DNA from: Pyrocephalus nanus
Lineage: Eukaryota > Chordata > Aves > Passeriformes > Tyrannidae
Direction of reading: 5' to 3'
NCBI GenBank assembly: GCA_038380795.1
Contig: CM076264.1
Span: forward strand, 73,587,223 to 73,651,222
DNA length: 64,000 bases
The notes below the pieces were generated by a model. It worked only from the letters and a program-made list of their open reading frames with translations. It made no database searches and had not been told where the DNA came from. The translations under genes and the position numbers were made by a program. The number at the start of each line of letters is the position of its first letter. Position 1 is the stretch's first letter. Positions 28,567 through 57,957 of this stretch are shown one piece after another.

Positions 28567-29577
28567 CCTTGAATCTCAATGACAGGCCTGCAGAAATGTC
28601 TGTGGAGCCCAAGGAATGAATCTTTATTCTCCAGGACCCCACCACCACACCCTCCTTTCCTGTGGGAAAAGCACCTGAGTGGCCCTTGATCTGAAAAGGT
28701 GCCAAAGAGCTCTCTTAAATCCGAGGAAGAACCAGGCACAGCACTTATAACGTTGCATAACTCACACAGATCTCCAGGCTCCCCCCTGGATGGCAGCCCA
28801 AAGGTACTTTGTCTCGATTCAGTAATGCTCTCTGATGTGTGGGATTCACCAAAAAAAACAGGGATGTGTACCAAATTCCCTGTGTGCAGCAAGGAGAGGG
28901 TTCAGCACGTTACTGCTTCCCCAGCTCGCAGCTCGATTCTGTGGAACGAGGGCGTGTGCTGAACGAGAGAGCTGGGCCAACAGACAGGTCTTGATTTCAA
29001 CTCCCCCTCCCCGTTTCCTCAGAATCCCAGAGAATCTCCAAGGAGATCCTCAGCCTTCCAAAAAAACCACAAAGGCAACAGACTGAAAGGGCTTGCTCAG
29101 AGTGCCTCCAGACCGACAACTGTTCACCAGATAGGCCAGATATTATTCTTTCTTTTTTTTTTTTTTTCATTTTAACAGCAAAACCATCCCATTCAGGCAG
29201 TCAATCCGATGTTTCTTGGTGAGCAGGGATAATTAGGTGGCTGTAACCATACAACACCGAGTGCTCTTGCTACTATAAATAAAGGTCAAACACAAGACAC
29301 TTCCTGCTACTTTTGCTGACACGTGGCTGCCATTTAGTGATTCATAATCTCTACACACGGCTTGGCACACACAGGGGATTTTTTTTTTTTTTTTTTTTTT
29401 TTTAACCAGGAGCTGTTTTCCACTTGTGCAAACACAACAAAGGATTTAAAGGGACCTGCTTTGATCCACCTACAACCCCCCCACAGCACGATCCAGCTGA
29501 AGGTAACTAAGGCGAGCAGGACCGTGGGCTGTAGGTTGAGCTATGCACAAGTGGGAGCTGATCCCCTGCTGGCTTTC
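28567..29577. other. non-coding single-copy DNA, 1.0 kb
   Basis: No gene was seen. Contains a T run at about 29,152-29,167 and the T25 tract listed separately. The last 50 bp may already be weakly related to the sequence upstream of copy B. Confidence 0.45.
29379..29403. repeat. T25 homopolymer
   Basis: Twenty-five consecutive T residues. On the minus strand this is an A25 run, but no retroposed gene is recognisable on the adjoining side. Confidence 0.9.
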
Positions 29578-30030
29578 AGGGGTCTTCAAGCTGGAAAAAA
29601 GTTTAAAGCTACGCCTATTTTTGATTTTCTATAGTGTTTCTCTTCTCTCTATCACACTCCCCTGTGCAACTGCATAAACACTGATAGGACTGAGCAGCAG
29701 AGGGGAAAATGGACATTGGGAGATAAGAAAACCTGACAGTCTTTGGATAGGACTGTGGTGGGCTGTGGTCTTCTGGTCCACAGGCTGGGCTTTAGCTGTG
29801 AGATGGGCTCTGATGAGATTATTTGCATTGTCTGGACAGGAATAGGAAAAAATTGCACATGAATTAAGTGCTTTCACATGTTGGGTTCTGTGGTTTGTAC
29901 AATGTCTTGGTAGCAGGAGCACAGAGGCAATCACAAAAGATCAAAAAGGCCCTTCATGTTTAGGAAGAAAACTGGGCACAATGTGCTTGTTTCATCAAAT
30001 AGGTGTTCCTGGTTTGGAAGATTTGTGTTT
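29578..30030 (+). repeat. duplicated segment, copy A (CpG-depleted)
   Basis: This segment aligns by eye with 39,755-40,253 in the same orientation. Shared text includes 'aaagctacgcctatttttga', 'gcaactgcataaacactgat', 'gggctgtggtcttctggtcc', 'gaattaagtgctttt'-like and 'aataggtg'. About four positions in five appear identical, with a few small indels. Of 17 CpGs that I count in copy B between 39,781 and 40,090 only one (in the shared 'acgcc') is still CpG here; most of the others read TG or CA. It is neither CR1 nor a recognised LTR. Both copies contain overlapping minus-strand frames of about 70-100 codons, but indels shift the frame between copies, which argues against a protein. Confidence 0.85.
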
Positions 30031-30454
30031 GTGTGAGATTGTGGTGATTTTATTTGAGACAACTCCTGTCTGTTTCTGTGGAAAATATCTGCAAGATTCA
30101 GGCAAACATGAAGCATCAGGACACGGAGAGCTGCTGGGTATTTGGGAATTCGTCCCAAAGCAGTGAAAAAAAAATGACTTTCTTAACACACTCTCACAAT
30201 TTCTCAGGCTGCACTAAAAATCTGCCTCATCTCCTCTTTTGATTTGTTTTAAAGACCCCCTAAGACGTTTCCAACTGGAACTAGACTGGGGGATGTGCAC
30301 CTGTGAGCACGTAATTCCATGAAAGATTGTCTGGTACCTTTGATGGTTGGTCCACCTAATTTCCTTTTGGTAACTTTATTTTTCTGCTGCGTATTCATGA
30401 AAAGTTCAGGGCAGTGGTTTGAATTCTGTTGCTGGAGTGAATTCACCATTCAGT
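30031..30454. other. non-coding DNA after copy A
   Basis: Similarity to copy B ends abruptly at its left edge: where copy B enters the GC-rich exon region, this sequence is ordinary AT-rich DNA. Nothing else is recognised. Confidence 0.5.
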
Positions 30455-30695
30455 CATGGAATCATAGAGTCATGGAATGGTTTGGGTTAGAAGGGGCCTT
30501 AAAGGTTATCCCATTCCAACCCCCTGCCACGGGTAGGGACACCTTCCCCTATCCCAGGTTGCTCCAAGCCCTGTCCAACGTGGCCTTGGATAATTCCAGG
30601 GATGGGGCAGCCACAGCTTCTCTGGGCAACCTGGGCCAGGGCCTCCCCAGCCTCACAGGGAAGAATTTTTTGCCAAAATCCAGTCTAAGTCTTTC
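30455..30695 (-). mobile_element. CR1: CR1 LINE 3' end, antisense
   Basis: The + strand begins with tail octamers 'catggaatcatagagtcatg', then 'gaatggtttgggttagaagg', 'gccacgggtagggacacctt', 'gctccaagccctgtccaacg' and 'ggcagccacagcttctctgg'. It spans about 240 bp; the right edge is approximate. The 195-codon + frame running through it is therefore not a gene. Confidence 0.94.
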
Positions 30696-33600
30696 AGTCA
30701 CTTTGGGGTTTGCATTACACCCCCCCTTGGAGTTTCCACTGTGCTGGGGACCACTTAGATGTGCAGCCAGACCCAGTCCTTGCACAGGGAGCCAACAGCT
30801 GAGGGGAACAGGAGAGAAAAACCTGGCTGGGGAAGGGAAATCTGTAAGGGGTGCCCTAGTGGGAGCCTGGCAGTCCATGGTCCTACCGACTGAATCACGC
30901 TGCTGATGTCATTTATTGAGGCTGTTTCCTGGTGAGGAAGAGACTCAGCCCCACACAGGTCACCAGCTGGTGCTGGCACACCCCGCAGCAGTGAATCACT
31001 GAGGCTGTTTGCAGAGTCCAAGCTGAGTCACTTGCCTGGACAGAGACCTCCCAGAAAACGTTCCTCTGTGAACAAAATACCCCACCAACTCGGTCAAAAA
31101 AAAGTCCAGGTCCCTTTCTGGTGTCCTTTGCCTGCTGAAAGGAGCGTTTTGCTCAGTGGAATGTCTCCTCCCGAGGCTCTTGCCCCGTGGGGGTGTCCCG
31201 GTGCAGAGTGACCCGCGTTTCCAGCTGGCAGAACAAAGGCAGGGATCGTGTTAGCAGGCTGTTTGTTCAGCGTCCAACTTACAGGACATCGGGCACCTGG
31301 AACCTCTGGCACGCAAAACCTGTATCTCATTATCTTTTTTTTTTTTGCTTTTCTTTTCTTCTGAACCCTAAGGGAACAGAAGAAAAAGAGAAGGCTTAAA
31401 ATGTTGGGGGTTTTTTTGTTTGTTTTTGTTTGATTGTTTGGTTTTTTGTTTGTGTGTTTTTGTTTGGTTGTTTTTGTGGGGGATGTTTTTGTCTTTTCAA
31501 TTAAAAAAGCAAATTGTGCAAGGAAGGGGGAAAAAGTGGCTCCAAGGCTACATTATCACCTGCTCACTTATAAATACTGGCTCAGATGAGATAAGTAAAA
31601 GTAGAATGTGGCCCTAGACACACAAAGGAGGTCTGGAAAATCCTGTGTGCTAGGGACAAGCTAGTGAGGGATCTCCTGAGCCATCCAGGGTCTTGGCCTC
31701 TACAGGGACTAGTGGCCAGCAAATGGTGGGATATGGGCTCCAGGCAAGCCCATGAAGGTGGGTCCCCATACAATGGGTAGCTGAGCTGTAAACACCTTTC
31801 TGAAGGATCTTGTGGTTACACAAAGGGCCAGGTGGTAAATGGGCAAGTGAGAGATGATGAAGTTTAGTAAGCGAGATCTTTTGGGATTTTCTAAGCAAAC
31901 AAATCCCATCAGGCTCAGGACATTCCTGAGCTGAATATAAAGGAGGCAGGGAGATTTCTGGGGAGACATGTCACGTGTGTTTGACCCATGAACCTCGAGC
32001 ACCTGCTCACAGCCACTGATTTTATTTTCTTTTCATCGAGATAACCTGAAGCAGCAGGAAGCAGAACCAGGCAGAGCTTGGCCACCCAGCACCTCATACC
32101 ATGTGATTGGAGCTGGGAACAGCATCCTTGGTCACATGGGGCAGGAATGTGTTCTCAGCAGGTCTCCACGTAGGCAATCCCAGGTTGGAGACGCACCCTA
32201 TGAGGATGTCTTACGTTTTCTTTTCCAAGTCCCTTCCTGCTTTTATCTGTACCTGCCAAAGCAGCTTCCCAAGCTGGATAGAGCCTGGGCCAGAGCACTG
32301 ACTGTTTTATTCTCTTAATGTGTCCCAGCAACACTGGGCAGCCAGCCTGGCATTTTGACTAAGATTTTAATGGCTTGCTATTACCAATTCCCCTTTTCCA
32401 TTTCTCTCCTAGCAACACTGGGTAATTTTACCTTTTTTATTTTTTTTTTTTTTTCTGTTAAACTCTTGTTTTGCCCTTCCTTTGGGGATTGGGACAAAGG
32501 ACATGCTGCCACAAAAGGGATTTGGGTGCCATATCCCTGCTAGTGCTGTTGCTGGCTGTAGTGTGCTGCTACCTCTTTCCCTCCCCACCTCAGAGCCAGG
32601 CAAACACATTCTGTTCTTTTGGGATTATATCCCAGAGATCTGAATGTCACAGCAGGCTGCACAGTTTAACACAGGAAACATTTGTGCCTGCTATTTAAGA
32701 GAAATAAGTTGCTCGTGTTTCCCTGGGAACCAGCCCGTCAGTCGAGCTCGTTTGACTCCCCTGCTATTAAAATAAAATGTGAAAGAGCAAATGGGTGTGT
32801 TTTGCAAGTTGTAGAAGGGCAAAACGCTCTCTGGGTATATTTTGTATCCAAAATGCATATCCTTTTGTAGAGAAGGAGGTACATTAGAGTGTTTTTCCAA
32901 GCTTATTGTTATTCTTTCGGGTTACTTTTGCTAGCAGCGCCGTGTCTTCACACAGAGAACTTGGAGCTGACTGTAAAAAACCCCTGTAGCTCAGCAGTTG
33001 TCATCTTCTGTCTGTGTGCAGGTTACACACAACACTTGCTCCCCTTGGCGCTGGTTTCCTCGGCTACTTGGGGGTGTTCTCTATTGTGCCTCTTAGCCTA
33101 TTTCTTCAGAGCTTTTCTCTCCCCCCTCCCTTCCTCCAGGAGTGTTTTCACTTCTCGTTTTGTCCAGGTTCACGGGAAGGTTCATCTTTAAGACCTGGGG
33201 CTCCTAGAGGCGGCAGGTTATCCGTGGGGCAGGCTATTTTTAGGGAGCGCAGCCCCGGGATGGCTCACAGCCCTTGGCAGCGGACACGTGCGGAACACAA
33301 AGGCAGGCTCTGTCCCGGCTCGGCATCGGCAGGAGCTGAGGCAGGCACGGGCAGGGAGCAGGGCACAGCAAAACAACGGGGCTGTTCTGGCCAGGGAGAA
33401 GGGCTGCAGGCTGGGAGCGGGGATCTGTGGGAATCGCAGTGCCCGGAGCCAAGGCAGGGGAGGCTAGGATGAAAACAGTGCAGCTTCTCAGGATCGTTCC
33501 CTGGCTTTTGCAGGTATCACCCCTCGGCCTTTAAGGGGAGACATCCAAACTTGCAACACGTTGCCTGGAAGAGGGATATATTGCTTTTAACACTGCTGTC

Positions 33601-34039
33601 ACCTGGCCAGCGCTAGAGATTCAAAAAACCCGTAGGACTAGGTTGCATTTTCCCACTGTTCTCGCTGCTGTTCCTTGCGTTTTCCTCTGCTACCTGCTGG
33701 GAGATAAGGCAGGAGCTGAGCCGCTGTCATCAGCGAAGCCTCCTCCCAGATTTCCACATTCAGCCCTGTTCCTTTGTACCTGCCAAATTTCCGTTTCCTG
33801 GATTCTTTGTGTTTGGAGTAATTCAAGTGGTCGGGGTTTCACGCGATCTGTGCTGAACTGGCCACAAACTGGGGGAAAGGTTCAGAACTGCTTTCCTAGG
33901 AAGGCAGGTTGGGCAAGAAAAGTCTGGATCTCCGGGGAATAACTTGTGAAGGATGTGCTAAAGGTGTACAAAATAGTGATAAATTGCCAAGAATTCGGCT
34001 GTTCACTGCTTCACCCAGTATAGGAACACGAGGGCACTG
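30696..34039. other. non-coding single-copy DNA, 3.3 kb
   Basis: No gene was recognised. A T/G low-complexity tract is at about 31,408-31,490, and a T run at 32,440-32,456. A TATA-like 'atataaag' lies at about 31,935; the flanks (31.6-32.1 kb) have no clear LTR borders. The CpG cluster near 33.2 kb is listed separately. Confidence 0.45.
33180..33480. promoter_or_regulatory. weak CpG cluster with a MEF2-type site
   Basis: CpGs are concentrated here relative to the surrounding kilobases. At 33,234-33,243 the sequence CTATTTTTAG exactly fits the MEF2 consensus YTA(A/T)4TAR. No splice donor or initiator can be defended. An enhancer or a minor promoter upstream of the main island is a reasonable reading, on sequence alone. 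Confidence 0.3.
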
Positions 34040-34316
34040 AGGGCTAGAGCACCTCTCCTGTGAGGAAAGGTTCAGAGAGCTGGGGTTGTTCAGCCTGGAG
34101 AAGACTTCAGGGAGAATTTAGAGCCCCTTCCAGTGCCAGAGGGCAGGGTTAGATGGGATATTAGTGAGAAATTCTTGGCTGTGGAGGGTGGGGAGGCCCT
34201 GGTACAGGTTGCTCAGAGAAGTTGTGGCTGCCCCTGGATCCCCGGATCCCCCACGGCAGGGGGGTTGAAACCGGATGATCTTTAAGGTCCCTTCCAACCC
34301 AAACCCTTCTGTGATT
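34040..34316 (+). mobile_element. CR1: CR1 LINE 3' end, sense, internally deleted
   Basis: Starts with 'gggctagagcacctctcctg', then 'ggggttgttcagcctggaga', 'cctggtacaggttgctcaga' and ends with 'gatgatctttaaggtccctt' and 'ctgtgattg'. The stretch normally between 'gtggctgcccctggatcc' and the 'ggcaggggg' block is missing, a deletion of about 80 bp compared with the 17.9-kb copy. Confidence 0.92.
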
Positions 34317-37300
34317 GTTCTTCTGTTCTTTTCCAGCCCAGTTTTTCTGTTTCTATATGTTTTTTCCCCCCTTTTTCCAAGGCATCTGCTTTGGAAGGTG
34401 GCTGGGGGTACTGCCGTTCTTCCTGCTGTTCCCTGGAGATCACTTTCTCCAGGATTTTTGAGCGACACAGCGAGGCACAAGGGAAAAGACAGTGTAGGAA
34501 AAGCCTGAATTGCTGACACCAGGATCTCTGCACTAACAGCCCTGCTCACCTGGTGATGCTGAGGCCAAAAGTCCGGGAAGGATTTGCCTCCTGTGCACTT
34601 TCCAGTACAGCCAAACAACGGCCTTGGCTGCACCAGCTCAGGTTGTTCCCACCATATATCCCAGAGAATCCTGCAGCACTTGCACAGCCCATGGAAGATG
34701 CAGCAGTTCTCCAAGCTCCCTGCTGAATGATCCCAGTGCTGGTTACTGGGAGGCACTGGGAGATATCCTGGCTGTGGGACAGCACAGCCCCTGGCCAGCA
34801 CACAGGTTGTGCGTGTGAGATAGTGCCACCTTTGGTCCTGCTTTCCTCCTGTGTCCCAGGGAAAGTATTTCCAATTTTCCTGGTCCAAATGAAGCCAAAA
34901 GGGTGCTTTAGGTGTGAGAACTCGCAGAAATGCAGTCGTGGGGGACTTGTAAATTTAGCAGAGAGGAAGTTGTGGTAAGAATAAGTATTTGGGACTTCGC
35001 AGACACAAGCCATAAACAGCAGCAAATTTCAGGCATTTGGGGTGTGTGTTTCCTACAATGATTTATTGAGGATTGTGATGGATCTTCCACACATAGATTT
35101 CTTTTTTGCCCCAATTTTGTTGATTGGATACTTTTCTCAGCAGCTGTATCCTTTCCAGGTATTCATGTAGGAAGGTCTTAAAGCCTATAGCTCCCAGGAT
35201 ATTAAAAGAAAATATCATTTGAGCTTTATCATTCTGGAAATCACCTTGCTAGGAGGGAATAAGGAAGAACAGACCTGAAAGGGGGAATTTCTCCTCCTCA
35301 TCTGGGCTCATTTTTTTTTCTAATCACAACGGTGAGCTGGATGGTTGTTCTGTGTCTAGACTGTTTATCATCACAGGGAAATATTTATGATAGAGCTCCC
35401 TGTCCCTTGGACAGCTTGTCAAATGATGACTGAATAGCAAATGTCATTATTACTCATTCCCATGAATTGCAGCAGCTACACTGGGATGACTGAAAGGTCA
35501 CAGAGGCCTTTTTAGCAAAGGGCAGACTCTCAGAAGTGACTTTTGAAACTGCCTGTAGCCTGAATATACTTTCAAAGGGAAGCTCCTGGGCTTTCAGGTT
35601 CCCTTTGTAGTCTTGGTAAAACCTTTCATTGAGTTATTGTCAGGGGACTGTGAGGAAAAAGGGGAAATGCACTCACAAGAAGCGATACTGTTTGATCTTT
35701 GCCCTTCCCTGTTGTGTTTGTGATCCCCAGTCTCGCTCCGGATAGAATTTCTAGCGGGATTTTGTATTTATGTTAGAATGTTTCTCCTGCGCCGGACGTG
35801 GTTTTGGTTTTTCTCCTGGGAATGTATGTTTTTGTTTGACTGCTCGAGTGTCCCTCAAGTGGGTGAATGAATCATGGAAATTCTGTATTGTGGCTGGATG
35901 GAAAGATAATAAAGCCTTAAATCTGGGCCCTCCACGGTAAGTTTACTTTGCCTGGTTTGCAGGTAACAGGGATTAGTCTTTCTCTAGTAAACAAACAGTG
36001 TAGAGGATGGAAAACTCAGCTGGGCTGTCTGGAGTTGTTGTAGTTATTTAACACAGGTATTTTCAGACTGTTCTTGGTGTCCTGCCTGGGGAAACACAAG
36101 TGGCTTTGTCGTCATTTGTTACTCAGCCCAGAGCAGGAGCCAAAATCAGCACCCAGGTACCCTTGTGATAAAGAATCCTGGCTTAGAAAATCAGAATCCC
36201 CCTGCTCTAAGCTGCCTATTTTCTGCTTGCCTTTGAGAGTTATATTTTAACTTGACAAGGGTCTCCTGCTAGATGTCAGTGTGGGGGTGGATCCCCCGAA
36301 GATTTCAGCATGTGCCAGAGTCCTTTTCGCCACAGACATGCTCTCAATGCCAATGATGGATCTTGGCAAGGGCGGGCAACCTGTAAAGCACAACACAACC
36401 CCTGGCTTATATCAGGTGTCTTTGCACTGGGAGATTCCTGGCTTCAGGTGGATAATGGCATTTTTACTGATATTTTTAAATCTGAGGATGAAAAACGCTG
36501 CGTGAGAACGGTAAGAGGCAAAGCCTTTTTACTCCAAAAGCCAGGAATGAGGTGTTTTGGAGCATGGAGGGGTACTGCCTGCTGCCTGTTTTTTATTTTC
36601 CTAAAAAACAGCTTATACCAGGCTTGTTCTTCATCTCACCTGACAGTTCTAGGAACGGGGCATTATGTTGGTCAATAGGAATCAAGAGAACAATCTCTTA
36701 ATGGCTCAAAATCATTATTTTGCTTGTCAGGGAAAGAAAATAATCAATCCATCCAATAAACCTCCTTGGCCAGACTTCAAACAGCCGCAGACTCAGAAGT
36801 ACAGCTTCATACAGTGTCCAGGTACCCTTCCACCCAAATTGTGCCCACCATGTGCTCTCCTGATTCGTTTGCTGGACTCCCTTCCCCACCTGAACGTGGG
36901 TGCTGAAGGACATGAGATCTGAGCTATTTCTGTCCATTCCAGGGAGAATTTTCCATGGTGCAAGAAACCCTCTCAGAAAGAGATCTTCCAGGCAATAATA
37001 CACTTTCCTTTCTCCATTTCGATTATGTCTCTGGATTGCAGGTCTTGGCTATCTTTTCAGGTGTGTTTTGCACAAGGAGGTCTTTCTCCTCCCTAGTTTT
37101 TAGATTACTCTCTCTGGACATTTATCATTCACTTTACATTTCATTCATAAACCTGTTCTTCATGTGTTCCTCCCAGGAAAGATGCTTTACTTACCATGTG
37201 GTCTGTTCACAGAAAACAAGTAAGAGAGGCACAAAAAAAATGCTGATTTTAAGATTTCATCAAATTTCTTTGGAACTACTGTCTGAATGTGTCACCAACC

Positions 37301-38167
37301 TCAGCCATATCTGTCAATTCCTCTTCCTTAATGAATCAAACGCTGCACTAAATATAGGCTTGCAATTCATCTTGGCTTTATTTTCCTCCAGGTTATTGCA
37401 TTTCTGTGTACCCTCAAAATGCCTCACAAACATGCCTGGGGCTTTGGGCTGGCTGGGCTCTGTTGCCAAATTTGAACTGGAGAAAGAGGGTAGAGCCCAG
37501 GGGACCCCAGCTACTCAGAGCTTTCTAGATATAGTCCAAATCCCTCGAATTGCAGCCAAGAGAGCTCAGAGCTGGTGCAGCAGCCCTGCAGCACGGTTGT
37601 TTATTTGCTATGGAGGAAATAGAAGTGCCATTCAGTAGGAATTGGCTCACCAGCTTTCCCAGCTGCTGGATGACTAGCGTCCCTCAACGGGTCAGCTTCT
37701 CTGTGGGAACAGGGAGCACCAGTCTGTTCCTTGGGGCTCCTCTTTGTCTACAAACAAACAGGGCCTGGATTAGAGGCAGCCCTAGGGGCAGGTATTGCTC
37801 TGTGAGATGCTGAGGATTCCAGGAAGGAAATCCTGGCTTCCCCACTGTTCCCTCCAGACAGGTATCTCCAAGCTGGATCATAAAACTCATCCCATTTCCT
37901 CATCATCTCGGACTGTGTCCGGCCTGGTGGGAAAGACTGCTCTTTCCAGCCAAGATAACCAACCTTGTTGCCAATTCCTCTCTTTCCAGATATAGCTGGT
38001 TAAAAGAGGGATATGGCTCATTTCCCCGAAGTCCTTTAGTTTGCAAAGCTCTGCTTCCATCTGTAGGCTCAGTGGAGACCCAGTGCTGAGCCTGTGGGGC
38101 GTGTGTGAGAAGGCAGAGCAGGCTCAGAAACCACATTTCAAACACAGCGTGTGGCCATGAGATGCTA
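34317..38167. other. non-coding single-copy DNA, 3.9 kb
   Basis: No gene was established. From 35,115 to 36,280 neither strand has an open frame of 60 codons, yet the DNA is not simple-sequence or a known repeat; it contains an NKX2-like TCAAGTG at 35,855-35,861 and a GATA-type AGATAA at about 35,904. A donor-like 'gaacggtaagag' lies at about 36,508-36,519, after a short open stretch, but no full exon can be defended. The 227-codon + frame at 36,955-37,638 shows no domain. Confidence 0.4.
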
Positions 38168-38435
38168 CAGAATCACAGAATATCCTGAGTTGGAAGGGAC
38201 CTCCATGAGGATCATTAAGTCCAACTCCTGACCCGGCACAGGACACCTCGAGAATCCCACCATGTGCCTGAAAGCACTTTCCAAATGCTCCTTGAACTCT
38301 GGCAGGTTTAGGGCTGTGACCACTGCCTTGGTGAGCCTGTTCCAGTGCCTGACCACCTCTGAGGGAAGAACCTTTTCCTAATATTCAACCTAAACCTCCC
38401 CTGAAGTTCCAGCTGTTCCCTTGGGTTCTGAAGGG
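38168..38435 (-). mobile_element. CR1: CR1 LINE 3' end, 'tatcctgagttgg' subfamily, antisense
   Basis: The + strand reads 'cagaatatcctgagttggaa', 'gtccaactcctgacccggca', 'ccttgaactctggcaggttt', 'agcctgttccagtgcctgac' and 'cctaatattcaacctaaacc'. It is the same subfamily and orientation as the 9.18-kb copy and retains the same blocks. Confidence 0.93.
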
Positions 38436-39116
38436 CAGTCAGGGAAGCGCAAGGCCTGGAAGAAAATGGCCTTCAAGCACAATGTGTACGGAATGGAAAA
38501 GTTTGCACATTTATTTAATATCTGATGGAATCTGGGAAACCCGAATCCGTGTTATTCTTGCTGTTTCCTTCAGATGTTTCGGCTGGCTCAGCAACCTCAG
38601 CCCAGCCGTGCAGGTGCAAACCTCTGGCAGGCAGCTGGCCGTGTTTTATAAAGCCTTAAAATGCTTGAAGGCAGTTTGCAGACACGACTGATTTCTATCC
38701 AAGGTGCACTCTTTCCTCCAGACTTTCTCTCCAGGCATCCAAAAGCAATTTCAGCCAGTGTTTAATGGGAAGGCTGCAGGGTGTCTGAGTATTCCAGCTC
38801 TGTGATGGACCCTCATCCTGTGTGTTACACATTGCTTGATTCTGGTAACAAATGTGGTTTTTTTCAAAGAAGATATAACTTAATAAACCATGCTGTTTAC
38901 AGGGCTGCTAGTTGGAGAGGAGAATTTTACCCTATAGCTGCACCAAAGGCATCAAATTCAGAATGAGCAGAGATGTCTTGCCTCTGCTTTAGGGCTATGA
39001 ATGCTGTCTCCCAATGAGTGACAATGGAATTGGATTATTTTGGCTTTCCCCTCCATTTGGGAGAAGTCTCCATGGCAGAGGCTCTGTGCCTCCATTTAAA
39101 CATATATATATCATAT
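38436..39116. other. non-coding single-copy DNA, 0.7 kb
   Basis: No gene or repeat was recognised. Confidence 0.5.
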
Positions 39117-39250
39117 TTAGAATCACTGAATGATTTGGGTTGGATCTTAATTTTAACCCCCTGCCATGGGCAGGGTTACCTTCCACTAGACCAGGTTGCT
39201 GAGAGCCCTGTCCAACCAGGTCTTGAACACTTCAAGGGATGGTGCATCCA
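39117..39250 (-). mobile_element. CR1: CR1 LINE fragment, antisense, cut by AT-rich block
   Basis: The + strand reads 'agaatcactgaatgatttgg', 'gccatgggcagggttacctt', 'ccactagaccaggttgctga' and 'gaacacttcaagggatggtg', then stops exactly where the TA-rich inverted-repeat block begins. The AT block thus marks either the truncation point or a later expansion inside the element. Confidence 0.92.
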
Positions 39251-39550
39251 ATATATACCATATATTATATATATATAGTATATATTATACATATAGTGTA
39301 TATATATTTACACTATATGTATTATAGCGTATTGAGTACATGTATACATTATGTATACATATATACACATTATGTATACATTTTGTATTATATGTTTATA
39401 TGCCTTATAGTATCTATGTAGTATATAGAGTTTGCATATGTACATATACATATATGTACATATACAAACATATGTACATATACAAACTCTATATACTCTA
39501 TGTATTATAGTCCATAGATATACTATCTATATTATATATATCCTATATGC
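39251..39550. repeat. TA-rich block with long inverted repeats
   Basis: About 300 bp of TA/CATA-type sequence. One inverted repeat has arms 39,287-39,300 and 39,309-39,322 (14 bp, 8-nt spacer). A larger one has arms 39,420-39,447 and 39,470-39,497 (28 bp with a single mismatch at 39,435/39,482, 22-nt spacer). An 18-bp unit is repeated head to tail at 39,452-39,469 and 39,470-39,487. The stretch could extrude as cruciforms. It lies about 500-800 bp upstream of the CpG island. Confidence 0.9.
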
Positions 39551-39754
39551 ATTGTATCAGCTGTGTGGTCTGCCTGAGGGCCACTGTGGGGTAGTGCTGG
39601 AACCCCCATTACCATCCCCTACCTCTAAAGGAGAAGGGAGAGGTTTATTAACCCAGAGGGTTTATTAACCCCGGATCTCTGCAATGGGCTGCGGCTGAGA
39701 CGTCCCTTGTTCTGAGGCTCGCCCTGCAAGAGGGACATAATCCTCCGGCGGATT
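39551..39754. other. spacer before copy B
   Basis: Single-copy DNA with rising CpG content. It has no firm counterpart upstream of copy A, although a 'gggctg' to 'gag' stretch near 39,690 might be a faint continuation of the duplication. A solo LTR cannot be excluded but no terminal TG/CA borders were found. Confidence 0.4.
39642..39671. repeat. 13-bp direct repeat, 17-bp period
   Basis: GGTTTATTAACCC occurs at 39,642-39,654 and 39,659-39,671. Each unit contains AATAAA on the minus strand and an HNF1-like ATTAAC half-site on the plus strand. Which, if either, is used cannot be told from sequence. Confidence 0.75.
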
Positions 39755-40253
39755 TTAGAGGTCTTCGGGATGAAGGAAAAGCGTAAAGCTACGCCTATTT
39801 TTGATTTTCCATGGCATTTTTCTTCGCTATATCACACTGCCTCGTGCAACTGCATAAACACTGATAGGACTGAGTGGCAGAAGGGGAAAACGGACGCCGG
39901 GAGATAAGAAAAACCTGACGGCGTTCGGAGAGGGTTGTGCTGGGCTGTGGTCTTCTGGTCCCCCTGTGGGCCGGGCTGTAGTTGTGAGATGGGCCCCGAT
40001 GAGATTAATTTCATTGTCTGGACGGGAGTAGGAAAAAAAAACCCTGCACATTGAATTAAGTGCTTTTCCACGCCGGGTCCGTTCTGCGGTTCTCAGAACG
40101 CCTCGGAGCGGGGACACCCACGGCAGCCTCGGAGCGCAGCGGCCAAACCGCGAAGGGCGAAAAAGAGCCTTCCTTTCGCGTTCGGGAACAACACCGTGTT
40201 TAACGCGCTCCTTCCATCGAATAGGTGCCCCTAACCTTGAAGTTTCGCGTTCG
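39755..40253 (+). repeat. duplicated segment, copy B (CpG-rich)
   Basis: This is the direct-orientation partner of 29,578-30,030 and forms the upstream shoulder of the CpG island. It keeps CpGs at positions where copy A has TG or CA. Near its right end an 11-mer, TTTCGCGTTCG, occurs at 40,174-40,184 and 40,243-40,253; its TTTCGCG core resembles an E2F site. In copy A the corresponding stretches read 'ttcatgttta' and 'tttgtgtttg'. An insertion of about 60 bp around 40,100-40,160 has no clear equivalent in A. Similarity stops just where the GC-rich exon candidate starts. Confidence 0.85.
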
Positions 40254-40720
40254 AGCCGCCCAGGCTGGCGGGCGGGGAGGAGGAAGCGGCGAAGGAGGAG
40301 GGGGAAGCGGCGGAGGAGGAGGCGGGGGCGGAGGCCGCTCGAGGCGGAGCCAGGGCGGGCCGCAGGGGAGGCGGCTGGAAAACAGGCCGGCGCTGGTTCT
40401 GGCCCCGCAGTGCCCGCAGCCGCCGCTCAGCAGCGCCGGGAGCCGCTCAGCCGCGGGAGGGCAGCGAGGCGAGAGCCGGGCGGGCGCCCAGACCCCGACA
40501 GTCCCCTCCGGCACCGCACAGAGAGGTACGAGCCGGGCGGGGGGGCGGCGGCCCCGGGTCCGCTCGCCGAGGGATCCCCCTCGGCGGCACCTGCGGAGGT
40601 TGGGCCGGTGCCGCCTCGGCGGGGGCTGCCCGGCTCTGGCCCCGCACGGAGCGCCCGGGGGGTGCGGGGAGAGGGCGGGGGGCTTTGTCTGAGGGGATGG
40701 ACCCGGGACCCGTCCCCCGC
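40060..40720 (+). promoter_or_regulatory. CpG island promoter
   Basis: The only dense CpG island of the window: GC content is very high and CpG is frequent throughout, in sharp contrast to its flanks. A GC box (GGGCGGGG) lies at 40,270-40,277, and two E2F-like TTTCGCG cores lie just upstream. No TATA box is present near it, as is usual for CpG-island promoters with dispersed start sites. The weaker shoulder extends left through copy B to about 39,700. Direction is inferred as + because a donor-like site follows on that strand; a divergent minus-strand transcript is possible. Confidence 0.85.
40254..40525 (+). other. candidate first exon, probably 5' UTR
   Basis: A G- and purine-rich stretch (40,265-40,345, many GGA/GGC units) is followed by GC-rich sequence up to the donor-like 'cagagag' / 'gtacga' at 40,525/40,526. 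The start is not defined; the left edge is set at the end of copy B. ATG codons are scarce. Frames across it translate to glycine-, proline- and alanine-rich text typical of GC-rich UTRs, so no CDS is called. The gene cannot be named because no downstream coding exon was found within the window. If the donor is real, 40.5-64 kb is first intron. Confidence 0.45.
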
Positions 40721-40724
40721 ACCC

Positions 40725-41094
40725 ACCTGCCCGAGCCACTCCAGGGGCCGTTCCCTGCGCCCCATCCCGCACGCCCACCTGCCCGAACCACTCCAAGGTC
40801 CATCCCCCGTGCCCTGTCCTACACACCTGCCCGAGGGGCCGTTCCCTGTGCCCCATCCTACACGGCACCCTGAGAGGTCATTCCCCCTGCCCCATCCCAC
40901 ACGGCACCCTGAGAGGTCATTCCCCCTGCCCCATCCCACACGGCACCCTGAGAGGTCATTCCCCCTGCCCCATCCCACACGGCACCCTGAGAGGTCATTC
41001 CCCGTGCCCCATCCCACACGGCACCCTGAGAGGTCATTCCCCCTGCCCCATCCCACACGGCACCCTGAGAGGTCATTCCCCCTGCCCCATCCCA
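40725..41094. repeat. 39-bp minisatellite with degenerate leader
   Basis: Six tandem 39-bp units occupy 40,861-41,094, each starting CACGGCACCC and ending CCCCATCCCA. They are nearly identical; the fourth (40,978-41,016) has CCCCGTG where the others have CCCCCTG. Between about 40,725 and 40,860 are diverged relatives with a CACCTGCCCGA start. As 39 is a multiple of 3, all frames stay open across the array and give 13-residue repeats on both strands; this explains the 275- and 253-codon frames here and is not evidence for a protein. On the minus strand each unit has four G runs (GGG, GGGG, GGGGG, GGG). Confidence 0.95.
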
Positions 41095-44000
41095 CGCACC
41101 CCAAAACACCCCAGGAACGTGCCCACCCCTCGCTCCTCAGCCCCTCGACACCCCAGCTCAGCTGCAGAGCAGGAGGCTGCGGTGTCATATCCCTGTTTTT
41201 TGGGGAGGGTGGGAGAAGGGATCGCTGTTTTGACTAAGGGCAGGGAAGCCCATGGTCGTGTAGGGATGTTGGGATGCTTTGGGTCTCTTTTCCCCCCCCT
41301 CTGTGTGTTGATGTCAGCGCATCTCCCGCACGCGATGCTCGCCTCCGCATTCCCCGCCTTGGCATTCCAGGCGATGACAAGAGGAGGAAAGGTTAAGTGG
41401 GGAAGTCACCGTGGTCGGGATGTAAATGACGAGCTGTGAAGACTCGCTCGGTGTTTCTTGTTTACACAAAGCTGTTACAAATACCGGGGGCTTGGCAAGT
41501 TCGCACCGGTCTGGCGTTTTCAGTCAAATCCATTGACTTCTTCGGAACTGCTCGTCTTTGAGGTCGCTGTGATAGGCGAGGAATGATTAGCCCCGGACTC
41601 GCGGTGGTGAAATGCACAGAGCCAATTGTCAGTTACCGAGCCTGACCTCAAAACAAAGCAATTTCAGCAATTTACATCCTCACCCCCAGACGCGGAGCCT
41701 TGCTCTGATCGCCCCAAAAAGGGCTGTGCGTGGTGTATAGACACTCTGCCCCAAACCCGGTGCCAGCTGTAATTGCTCGTATATCAGATGTAAACACAAG
41801 CTTTATGTAAAAGTGAAACCATATGTATCAGCTAACGTGCATCCACTCCGCGATCCTGCACAAACAGAGTCGAGCCCGGAGCTCTGTCCTTAGCTCACCC
41901 TGTTGATCCACTTTTCCCGTAGCCTGTACGGCGCAGCCCTATTCCCAGAGTTACCAGACAGGTTTAGTGGAGAACAAGAAATCAGCCCAGGAGCATTTCT
42001 GCGTGTTGTGCAAGAACGCTGTTATGTTCTCAGTCCTTTACAGATGTTGTTTTATTGACTTAGTGATAACATTTTGTTCTCCTAGGTCCTTTTCGCTTTC
42101 CAGATTGTTAGCCCAGCACTTACTAATCTTTTATGGCACTGCTGTGGAACAGATGTACCATGTTTTTTAGGGAGTAGCAGGCTCCGTGGTTTCAGCTGGC
42201 TGTGCCTCTAAAAAAAGCCAGTGCTGCCTTTCCCTCGTGCCGCTGTTGTGAAGTGGGTAGCCGGACTAGGAAGCAGTTTTGGATGACTACTGAGCTGGCA
42301 AAGATCCAAAGGTCTTGGGTCTGACTCAGTGCCTGCTTCCAAATCATTGTGTCGTTGCTCAAATGTTTACCTGGGCATCTCTGGGTTTGGAGGAGCATCC
42401 AGCTGGTATTTTGGCTGAGCCGTGCATGGGAATAGGCACAGAGCTCTGGGGCTTTAAGTCCTGAAAATGCTGGCTGATGTTGTTAGCTGTGGTTGTTTTT
42501 CCTTCTCTATCCTTTGGCTCCACGGAGCAGCCGCTCTGGAGCTGCAGAGCTTTGTGCCACGCTTCCCTGGGATGCTGGGGTGTGTGGCTGGAACCCCACA
42601 AACGCACTGCACGTGTCCTGGGATCCCATATCCTTGTCTCTGTGGCTGCTGAAAGCACTCCTGGGTGTCCCTCTCTGGTTTGTGCTGAAAGGGCTTTCTC
42701 CTGTTGCGCCTGTCCTACCAAAACGTGCCGTCACGAGTCAGCTGTGGTGCCTCTGAAACACGGGATGGAGGGGGCTCAGTTGACTTGGTGGGTTTGAAGG
42801 AGTTGAGGTGGAGTTTGTTAAGCTCAGTCAAACTGTTAGTGTTCCTCACAAACAGGGGATCAGCAATTTATGGGCTCCCCACAGCATCCTTTGGTCTATG
42901 AGGTGTGATGGTGCTTTTACTGACCTCCACCTTTGCCAAGTAGTGCAGTTTGGGTTTTCCACCATCTTCCATCCCTCAAAGGCTATCGGATTCCTGCCTG
43001 TCTCTGCCTCAGAAGGCTGGAGGAGTATTCCTGCCTCCTGCTGCCTGCCTCCAAAGTGTATCTGCCCGTCTCTCAGTGCCACTTACATCGCTTTGTATTT
43101 TCTGTTCCTGTCATCCCCACAGAAAAGTAATCCCTTCAAATCAAATCTGAGGTTCTCCAGCTAAATTCCTGCTGGCCCAAATGAGCTCCTAAGGAGAAGG
43201 GTGATGCTGACTTCTGAAGTATGTGGATTTACTTTGTGTGATTGGGTTATACAAAAAAAGAGAGAGAAATTGTTTTCTCTGTTCCTTTTACAAATGTTAA
43301 AGCACAGCCTGCTGTGTTTCACAAGTCTCACCGCTGTCTCCTTCTCTCTCAGTAATTGTAATTAACAGACCAGAAAATGGAAAAATGTAGAAATACCCTC
43401 TCCCAGTGGCCACAAACACTAGTCCTCTCCAGAAGTTAATGAAGTCAAGTCTATGGAAATTAAATAACTGATTTTTCAAGCTCTGTTGTTGAGTTAAAAC
43501 ATAATGTCAGAGGGATAAATTATAAAGGGATATAAAGATTGCCTCTTGAAACTGATGTGGGTGAAGAATGGATTTGAACTCTCCCTTCTCAAGAGGGAGT
43601 CTAAACCTCTGGCTTAAAAATGTTGGCTTAAGGATCTGTCCTTCTCTGCTTGGGTGCAAAAAATAATCAGTAGCACAGCAGTAATGTGGGAGAGGGATGG
43701 TAACCCACCAGGGGAATAAGGAATAGAAGCACTGCCATAAAAAACCCCAAATGCAACCAATTCGCCTCATTACAGACTCCTGAGAAGCAAATGATTTAAC
43801 AAATGGCATCTCAAAACCACCTTTGTGGTTTTTCCAGGCTATGTTACCGTCCTTGTTGTCTTCCTGTTGAGGGAACCTGACAATTTCCAGCCACCCCTGA
43901 TCCTTTGTCCCGTTCCCATCGGCTCTGTGGATGTGTTGGCTTTGCTGTGCCCAGGCTTTCCGTGCTCCCCATGGAGGGCCCATGGGTGTGTGCACTGGAG

Positions 44001-55528: not shown

Positions 55529-57904
55529 CTGTTTCTGCTCTCCGCTCCATTTCACACTCAAGAGGAAAATCACTCAACAGGGTGAGTTGCTTCTGTTGCT
55601 TTACAGCAGGGATATATTCCTATATAAAAGGTTTTCTGTAGCAGTACCGATTTCCTTTGGATATCTCCAGGTTACCTGGATGCAGACAGTGTATAGTGAG
55701 GAGAAGGTCAGCGCTTTTTGTGTTAAAACATTTCCTGCTGCTGCATGCAAACCCATGGGCAAAACTCCAGTCTGCTCAGGGGGAAGCTTCTGATGGGTGC
55801 AGACCTCAGCCAGCCAGTCTGCCAGCCATAACCCAGGCTTCCTCAGGATCCAAAGGACATGCTTCCCAACCTGAATTCCCCTGCCCTGGGCTCTGGGCTG
55901 CTGTGTGAGCGTGTTTGTGCAGACAGCAGGATGGAGGGGGCCGTGTGTCTCAGCGTGCTGAGGCCAGCCCTGGTTACGTGTCTGCTGCCTTATAAAGCTG
56001 GAACATGTGGTTTGCCTTTAACCACGAGCCCAGGAGAAGTCCCCTCCACGCAGCTGCACCTGGAGAGACATATTTTTCCTGGAGTCACGTCTGGTCTGTT
56101 CCCAGGCTGAAGCCGATCCAGTTATTGTGGGAGTAAATCCGTGTGGTGTTTGGCTTTTCTAATTTTGGCTCTCTTCCCGTGGTGTTTCTGTTGGATTTAA
56201 TGATTTTCCCTGTGGCTTAAATGGTGAAGAAGTGGTAACTGCTCGGGGATGGCTCGAAATCAAAGATTGAGTGTGGGTGTTGCTTTCAAAAAGAGAAGAA
56301 ATGATGCTATTTTCGAGAGCTGTGCTGCTATTTCAGGGCGGTTTGGTTGGTCTGGGTTCTGAGAAGTGGTGAGAAAAAATAATTGCTTTTGGGCTAGCGT
56401 GTCTCGTATGGTGTGTCCTGAAATGATCCTCATGTACACATTGAGCTGGAACCAATACTGAGCCTCTCTGCATGTAGATTTATTCCCTGTCTCCTCCCAG
56501 TGCAGAGGATGGGAGGAGAAGAAAAGACTCCTGTTGGAACTTTGCTCCCAAGCTTGCTGCAACAAATTTAAAACCCCAAGCCACAGCGAATTCCCAAGTG
56601 TAATTTGGACACCAGTGTTTATTTGACTGAGACACGATTGTGTACCGAGTTGTGCAAACATGGGCATGTTTCCTATTTAATTAAGGCTGCTTTTATCAAT
56701 TAATTTTCCCAAACGATTGGAGAGAGAAGGAGGGTGGAGAAGATAAGATCGCACGGTTGTGCGGGCGGGATGGGATACAGCTCCTTTTGGCAGCTGGAAT
56801 GGGAGTTCTGCAGGAAACTTGTTTGCAGCATTGTTCTATCCTTTATGTCAGTGTTTTTTAGTTTATAACCTCTTCATTTCCCCTTAGATTTTACTGTCTC
56901 TCTCTCTCCTTCCTTTTACAGTTCTGAAACACCAAGCTTTGCTTTCACCAGGAGCTCAGCAGTGGCAGATACTTCCCGATGCTCAGTGTGATTGAGGAGC
57001 TGGAAATAGGGGAAGATTCCCACTAGGAGGTCCACCAGAGCCTTGGAAGCTTGCAAAGACCTGGGGAAAGGCAGGCCAGTTTGAGACTGGTTGTTGCTTG
57101 TCCTGGTTAGTTCAGCAGCTCTGTTCCTGAGCTGTTAACCCTTTGTCCTGAGCTTGGTGTGCCGGTTTAGGTTCTGGCCAGCTGACAGCTTGGTGGTCAA
57201 TAGGATTTGGAAACCAGTGGCATTAGAGTTTTTGGCTACATCACCATTTCTGTGCCCAGGGTTAAGATGGGAATGTCCCATCCACTGCAGCAGGTTGAAC
57301 ACCACTCTGGTGTCCCTGTCCTCTCCAGCTTCTCCCCATGCAGAAGAGGAGTGTTCTGGCAGTGAAAGCTGTCTCTCTGATGTGGTAGAGGGATGTTGTG
57401 GGATGCCTTCTGGGTAGGTGGGACCTTTTTATATCTTCAGCCTTCCAAAATCAGGGGGTGCTGATGCTCCAGCTACAGCACATGCTTGTTCTGTCTGCAG
57501 GGGATTTGCAGAGCAGTGGAATTATTGGATTTCCTCCTCTGTTGTCCAAGGAACATGCCCAAGCTCTGCCTTTTGTTGCTGCTCTGATAAGCTGTGTCTT
57601 GAGTAATAAATACTGCAGCCTCTGAAACACAAACCACAGTGCTACAGTGTTCTGATCTTGCTGGCTGTGCAGGCAGGATCAGCTCCGTAGCCCAGACTTC
57701 ATTCTCAGGCCATTTCTCTGGGAATCAGGATGATCAGTCAATCAGGACGACCACCTCCTCCAACAGGAGTGTCTGATGGTAGAGGAAATCTTCCAGTCCT
57801 TAATTTTATCCCCTCACTGTAAATCAAGATGCTGAGCCACTGGCCAAGGGGTGCTCCAGAGGCTGCCAGAGGAACCTGTGCAGAGGAGTTCCAGATGGCC
57901 TGAT
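55529..57904. other. presumed intronic DNA with one strong acceptor-like site
   Basis: No gene was established. At 56,891-56,921 a long CT-rich tract ends in TTTTACAG, an excellent match to a + strand splice acceptor. It is followed by an open stretch containing an ATG at 56,979 and a stop at 57,024-57,026, but no good donor follows until a GTAGGT-type site near 57,413. It could be a UTR or alternative exon, or chance. Confidence 0.3.
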
Positions 57905-57957
57905 CCCATCCCATCCCATCCCATCCCATCCCATCCCATCCCATCCCATCCCATCCC
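57905..57957. repeat. (CCATC)n microsatellite
   Basis: Ten perfect copies of the 5-bp unit CCATC in a row, ending in CCC. The minus-strand frame through it reads a WDGMG-type repeat and is not a gene. A perfect array of this length is likely to be polymorphic. Confidence 0.95.

Follow-up and report, generated by a model that had tools for sequence, protein, structure and literature searches.

A promoter-proximal segment duplicated about 10.2 kb upstream of SMOX in Pyrocephalus nanus, with a CpG-poor and possibly enhancer-like copy

A segment that lies against a CpG island occurs a second time, on its own, about 10.2 kb farther upstream in a 64,000-nucleotide stretch of the Pyrocephalus nanus genome (hereafter the window, positions 73,587,223-73,651,222 of the contig). 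How this second copy arose, and whether it does anything for the gene beside the island, are the questions addressed here. The original prediction had described two homologous direct repeats of about 450 bp with identical stretches in common, and had offered several readings of the solitary copy: a decoy, an enhancer, a relic alternative promoter or a member of an undescribed low-copy dispersed repeat. On the basis of the sequence comparisons described below, we give roughly even odds (about 50%) to an old, single and local duplication of a promoter-proximal segment, in which the solitary copy (copy A) is probably a CpG-poor, enhancer-like element acting on the same gene as the promoter-proximal copy (copy B).

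Homology of the two copies

Pairwise alignment confirmed the repeats and showed that they had been placed accurately. The best local alignment joins copies A and B in the same orientation, i.e., as direct repeats (Table 1), at a spacing of ~10.18 kb. It comprises 563 columns, 48 of them with gaps, and holds 398 identities in 515 ungapped columns (77.3%). Its score of 454 compares with a maximum of 40 over 200 dinucleotide-preserving shuffles. Under the stricter scoring of blastn, the strongest part of the match pairs 29,548-29,874 with 39,727-40,066 at 80.3% identity over 340 columns (E 1.7e-82), and looser scoring gives a single match covering 29,548-30,029 and 39,727-40,251. When the segments were shuffled separately, the scores of the core and of the right part were reached in none of 500 shuffles each, and that of the leftmost 67 bp of copy A (29,511-29,577) was reached in 21 of 500, which makes this far-left piece marginal.

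Identity declines toward both ends of the alignment, and no homology was detected outside it on either side (153/500 and 456/500 shuffles reach the score). The latter figure comes from the comparison of 30036-30240 with 40261-40460, and thus copy A has no homology to the core promoter or to exon 1. On the left, tracing of the homology is limited by an AT-rich microsatellite block upstream of copy B (39251-39487), with a CR1-type match just ahead of it (39119-39250). Within the alignment there are three long identical runs, of 31, 26 and 21 bp, and both of the words by which the repeats had initially been recognized fall inside the 31- and 21-bp runs.

Table 1. Features of the duplicated segment and its surroundings (window positions)
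Feature	Positions	Strand	Basis or remark
Copy A, solitary and CpG-depleted, upstream of SMOX	29511..30029	+	Alignment and segment shuffles; outer left 29511-29547 marginal
Copy A core, less diverged	29578..29874	+	Non-CpG mismatch counts, Fisher test
Copy B, promoter-proximal, directly upstream of the putative SMOX CpG-island promoter	39693..40251	+	Alignment, CpG count per 100 bp
Copy B core, less diverged	39755..40066	+	blastn, mismatch counts
26-bp identical block	29604..29629 = 39784-39809	+	Contains the sole CpG common to both copies (29612 / 39792)
31-bp identical block	29664..29694 = 39844-39874	+	E-box/MYB-like, FOX-like and GATA-like words (consensus strings)
21-bp identical block	29759..29779 = 39941-39961	+	RUNX-like word (consensus string)
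CpG island, putative SMOX promoter	40001..41000	+	Two 500-bp steps: GC 0.67, 0.74; CpG observed/expected 1.03, 0.62
Probable non-coding SMOX exon 1	40390..40525	+	Read by eye; donor GAGAG/GTACGAG at 40,525/40,526; start approximate
25-T tract left of copy A	29379..29403	+	Weighed as a retrocopy tail, not accepted

The gene beside copy B

Downstream of the pair, the same strand carries three strong predicted exons, at contig positions 73,654,131, 73,666,409 and 73,669,483 (window-relative 66,909, 79,187 and 82,261). The first and the third, the two that were submitted to Pfam, both match the flavin amine oxidase family PF01593, and the third, which is the largest, matches spermine oxidase (7oxl) at E 6.5e-109 compared with E 4.2e-51 for the paralogue PAOX (5lae). 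By these matches, the gene beside copy B is SMOX, which encodes spermine oxidase. The first of the exons contains a methionine that fits what we take to be the SMOX start, and the exon with this putative start codon begins ~26 kb downstream of the promoter region. Because SMOX coding exons with a putative start methionine lie downstream of a CpG island that carries a donor, the stretch at ~40,000-41,000 is most simply read as the SMOX promoter together with an exon 1 that is non-coding, followed by a 26-kb first intron. Upstream of SMOX are a RING-finger exon and a pantothenate kinase (Fumble) exon, presumably of RNF24 and PANK2, and past SMOX there is a receptor gene that resembles ADRA1D; this arrangement would match the gene order of human 20p13. 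Within the window itself, inspection by eye of the ranked list gave no convincing coding exon.

Copy B directly precedes the SMOX island core, and copy A is isolated farther upstream. This bears out the view that one copy abuts a CpG island and the other stands by itself, and it lends support to the description of a promoter-flanking segment duplicated once, with the promoter assigned from the island and the gene structure. In contrast, the idea that copy A is a relic alternative promoter has been weakened as far as a start site is concerned, as the homology ends before the island core and exon 1 and no trace of the SMOX start was found in copy A. A 39-bp minisatellite of 6.5 copies (40842-41095, 97% match) is located directly behind the CpG island, in the presumed first intron of SMOX.

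Copy number and mode of duplication

The full-genome search that had been proposed as a check was carried out in an assembly of 1,072,440,100 bases and 153 contigs (1.07 Gb), where the window belongs to a 74.0-Mb contig, ~0.4 Mb short of its end. A query with copy A recovered two places, A and B, and a query with copy B plus its edges recovered the same two, with the partner at 80-82% identity in either direction; the many dispersed copies of an interspersed repeat did not appear, although the search reports the best candidates and the absence of a match is no proof of rarity. At the sensitivity reached, there is hence no repeat family. Inside the window, matches to a third copy are short and at chance level. 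When 254 kb surrounding the locus were compared with themselves (E <= 1e-10), the A/B pair was one of two pairs outside the larger repeat families, and it was the sole two-copy pair of at least 100 bp. The other is a 91-bp repeat with copies ~290 bp apart, far downstream at window-relative 156698-157079, near the presumed ADRA1D. The window matches and the self-comparison agree with the earlier claim that the segment is distinct from the CR1 copies. A collinear tandem unit of 10.2 kb was also considered and rejected, as the other matches near that offset (E < 1e-3) fall in CR1-type families. What was found are therefore two homologous copies outside transposable elements with one of them at a probable promoter, as expected of a duplicated regulatory element.

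Three other origins of the pair were weighed. One is that copies A and B belong to a low-copy dispersed repeat not described before and are near SMOX by coincidence; a length of ~0.5 kb would suit a short element. However, the only two places reported in 1.07 Gb belong to one locus, identity tapers toward both ends, and copy A is not bracketed by an exact target-site duplication (no exact repeat of at least 8 bp between 29330-29403 and 30005-30110). This reading, also raised in the original prediction, has thus found no support, and we regard it as very improbable. Even less credible is a false duplication produced by the assembly: we found no point in its favor, and at 77% identity with CpG-biased differences the copies are far too diverged to be two haplotypes. 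Slightly more can be said for copy A as a retrocopy of an antisense (divergent) transcript of the SMOX promoter, in which the right end would be the 5' end of the RNA and the 25-T tract the reverse-complemented poly(A). The tract is on the fitting side and in the fitting orientation, the homology stops at a plausible position for a divergent start site, ~140 bp before the approximately located exon 1, and comparison by eye shows 8 of 9 positions in agreement between GGGGATTTT, at the tract's left edge, and GGTGATTTT, to the right of copy A. Against this, the 107 bp between the tract and the homology (29404-29510) are unmatched elsewhere in the genome, with a best E of 0.03 in the 254-kb region; the flanks share no exact repeat of at least 8 bp; and two further T tracts of at least 25 occur in the same window. 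In addition, retrocopies are few in chicken, with 78 listed and attributed to CR1 (PMC3136929). A poly(A) abutting the homology together with a target-site duplication, the marks of a processed retrocopy, was not found here, the 8/9 likeness aside, and we consider this origin improbable.

CpG loss, core divergence and possible function of copy A

The two copies differ most conspicuously in their CpG content. Copy B has 41 CpGs and copy A has 3. Opposite the 41 CpGs of copy B, copy A shows TG in 18 cases, CA in 8, AG in 4, TC in 2, TT, CT, TA and CG in one case each, and gaps or half-gaps in 5. Hence, a single CpG of copy B has been kept (1/41, with a 95% interval of 0.06-12.9%) and 26 of the 41 are now TG or CA. 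A second, global alignment of a narrower span contains 39 of the CpGs of copy B (2 in the left part, 14 in the core and 23 in the right part), and the single retained one is in the core (Table 1). Along copy B, the CpG count per 100 bp climbs at 39,700, close to where the homology begins on the left. A general drift in GC content as the cause of this contrast is opposed by the non-CpG differences in 29,548-29,874, where 16 sites have G/C in copy A and A/T in copy B and 15 the reverse, and less so by the right part, where G/C is found in copy A at 9 sites and in copy B at 18. Because of the TG/CA pattern and the balance of the non-CpG changes in the left and central parts, methylation followed by deamination is the most likely route by which copy A would have lost its CpGs.

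Non-CpG mismatches are unevenly distributed along the alignment, with 8/26 in the left part, 16/127 and 13/142 in the two halves of the core, and 33/118 in the right part. The core therefore has 29 mismatches in 269 sites (10.8%) and the edges have 41 in 144 (Fisher test, p 6.6e-5 for the core against the right part and p 1.4e-5 against both flanks), a contrast that is confounded, since the right flank of copy B belongs to the CpG island and may turn over faster there for unrelated reasons. Inside the core, the clustering of differences is within chance (longest-run permutation p 0.06-0.42, dispersion p 0.085).

For a rough neutral yardstick, we used the CR1 LINE copies of the same 254 kb as a CpG clock, with the 86 of 97 aligned copies that passed a coverage filter and with three inferred CpG columns, of which one is doubtful. 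CpG retention is 7/50, 3/43, 4/46, 1/46 and 1/45 at mean divergences of 0.082, 0.105, 0.134, 0.253 and 0.335, respectively, values that are inflated since divergence was taken from a majority sequence that mixes subfamilies. For a single CpG column (78 of the 97 copies), retention is 7/20, 2/20, 1/19 and 1/19 at 0.088, 0.115, 0.212 and 0.333. Set against the retention in copy A, this rough clock suggests neutral change of at least ~8-10%, and probably more, on the branch of copy A alone. The 10.8% observed in the core is the sum over both branches, which favors some constraint on the core without coming close to proving it; if the clock estimate is taken at its lower end, constraint on copy B alone would explain the divergence of the core. 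Assuming a neutral rate in birds of around 2 changes per thousand sites and million years, an age of ~30 million years would follow for the core and one of ~90 for the right flank, figures to be taken for scale only.

The following course of events would account for these observations. A segment of ~520 bp just upstream of the SMOX core promoter would have been duplicated once, locally, to a site ~10.2 kb away in the same orientation, with copy B as the probable source and with the core promoter and exon 1 left out. Copy B would have stayed in the shore of an unmethylated CpG island and kept its CpGs, and copy A, placed in ordinary methylated DNA, would have lost them by deamination. Since the central 300 bp changed less than the edges, a control function shared by the two cores may be proposed. 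Copy B would then be a promoter-proximal control module of SMOX, and copy A a promoter-derived distal element acting on SMOX rather than a second promoter. The lower divergence of the core would be in keeping with the enhancer reading offered originally. The chain as a whole, i.e., a promoter-proximal module copied without its core promoter, stripped of its CpGs by germline methylation and kept as a distal SMOX enhancer, is put forward tentatively.

A non-functional relic would be the product of the same duplication followed by neutral decay, with the core preserved through constraint on copy B and the edges lying in fast-changing sequence. The near-total loss of CpGs, the lack of clustering beyond chance within the core, the absence of core-promoter homology in copy A and the location of the right flank of copy B within the CpG island would all suit such a relic. 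Two observations weigh slightly against it: the divergence of the core over both branches (29/269) is about equal to or less than the clock estimate for the branch of copy A alone, and the one CpG that was kept sits in the 26-bp identical block. We consider the relic a serious contender, nearly as likely as the enhancer-like copy.

Both copies have, at aligned positions, words that resemble the sites of GATA (two), RUNX, FOX, E-box/MYB, relaxed MEF2, SOX, NKX2, NFAT (two), ETS and SMAD, and the GATA, RUNX, FOX, E-box/MYB, SOX and NKX words are found in the central 300 bp. They are consensus strings rather than entries of a motif library and were chosen partly after the conserved blocks had been viewed, and are given as description, not as evidence of binding. 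Some are only partly kept, as copy A shares 2 of the 5 NFAT words and 1 of the 3 ETS words of copy B. STAT, NRF2-type and HIF words occur in copy B only, and octamer, C/EBP-ATF-type and NF-Y words in copy A only. No Rfam family reaches its gathering threshold within the window, and the minus-strand open frame of copy B gave no protein match at E <= 0.1 among 3725 word-sharing candidates. No match was found for exact blocks of 29 and 26 bases among viral contigs or for those of 29 and 22 bases among GTDB contigs. A 19-base block did occur in two viral contigs; those 19 bases are the sole match better than E 1 and were taken as chance. Searches of the literature on the SMOX promoter and enhancers, avian spermine oxidase, duplicated non-coding elements and words of the segment showed no published record of this duplication among the papers listed, and among six segment words sought in the text only an 11-base word matched.

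Duplication of regulatory segments is a known phenomenon, of which the A/B pair would be a further case, and its gene can now be named. In human, distal activity was acquired by duplicated promoters, one of which has minimal promoter activity left (Weaver and Lowe 2026, PMC13333887). The pair resembles those segmentally duplicated regulatory elements in that a promoter region was copied by DNA duplication and the copy loses its promoter character and may act distally. However, the human cases described there went to other chromosomes, one of them as part of a duplicated stretch of ~200 kb, and have been assayed with CRISPRi and STARR-seq (PMC13333887), whereas the present, putative one is ~520 bp long, local, old and from a bird. 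In the GeneHancer entries quoted in PMC11335940, a human enhancer, GH20J004133, is linked to SMOX and lies, to judge from the element names, ~15 kb from the SMOX-linked promoter/enhancer GH20J004148. Its position is a lead only.

The pair also has features in common with shadow (redundant) enhancers, where one gene has two elements in its neighborhood that contain the same sites. Shadow enhancers, however, are defined by overlapping activity and not by sequence homology, and copies A and B are paired by sequence.

If copy A is active, the pair would probe the contribution of CpG density to a promoter-side element, with 41 and 3 CpGs in versions 10 kb apart that have many candidate factor-binding words in common. 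As a distal enhancer it would provide a natural experiment in which transcription-factor content and CpG content are set apart, with the two versions in one locus, and a compact case of the conversion of a promoter segment into a distal element, at a gene that controls polyamine breakdown. An inert copy A would be a case of CpG-island decay following relocation. Either way, the scope is modest. Farther downstream in the window, a perfect tandem array of 11 ATCCC units was observed at 57903-57957.
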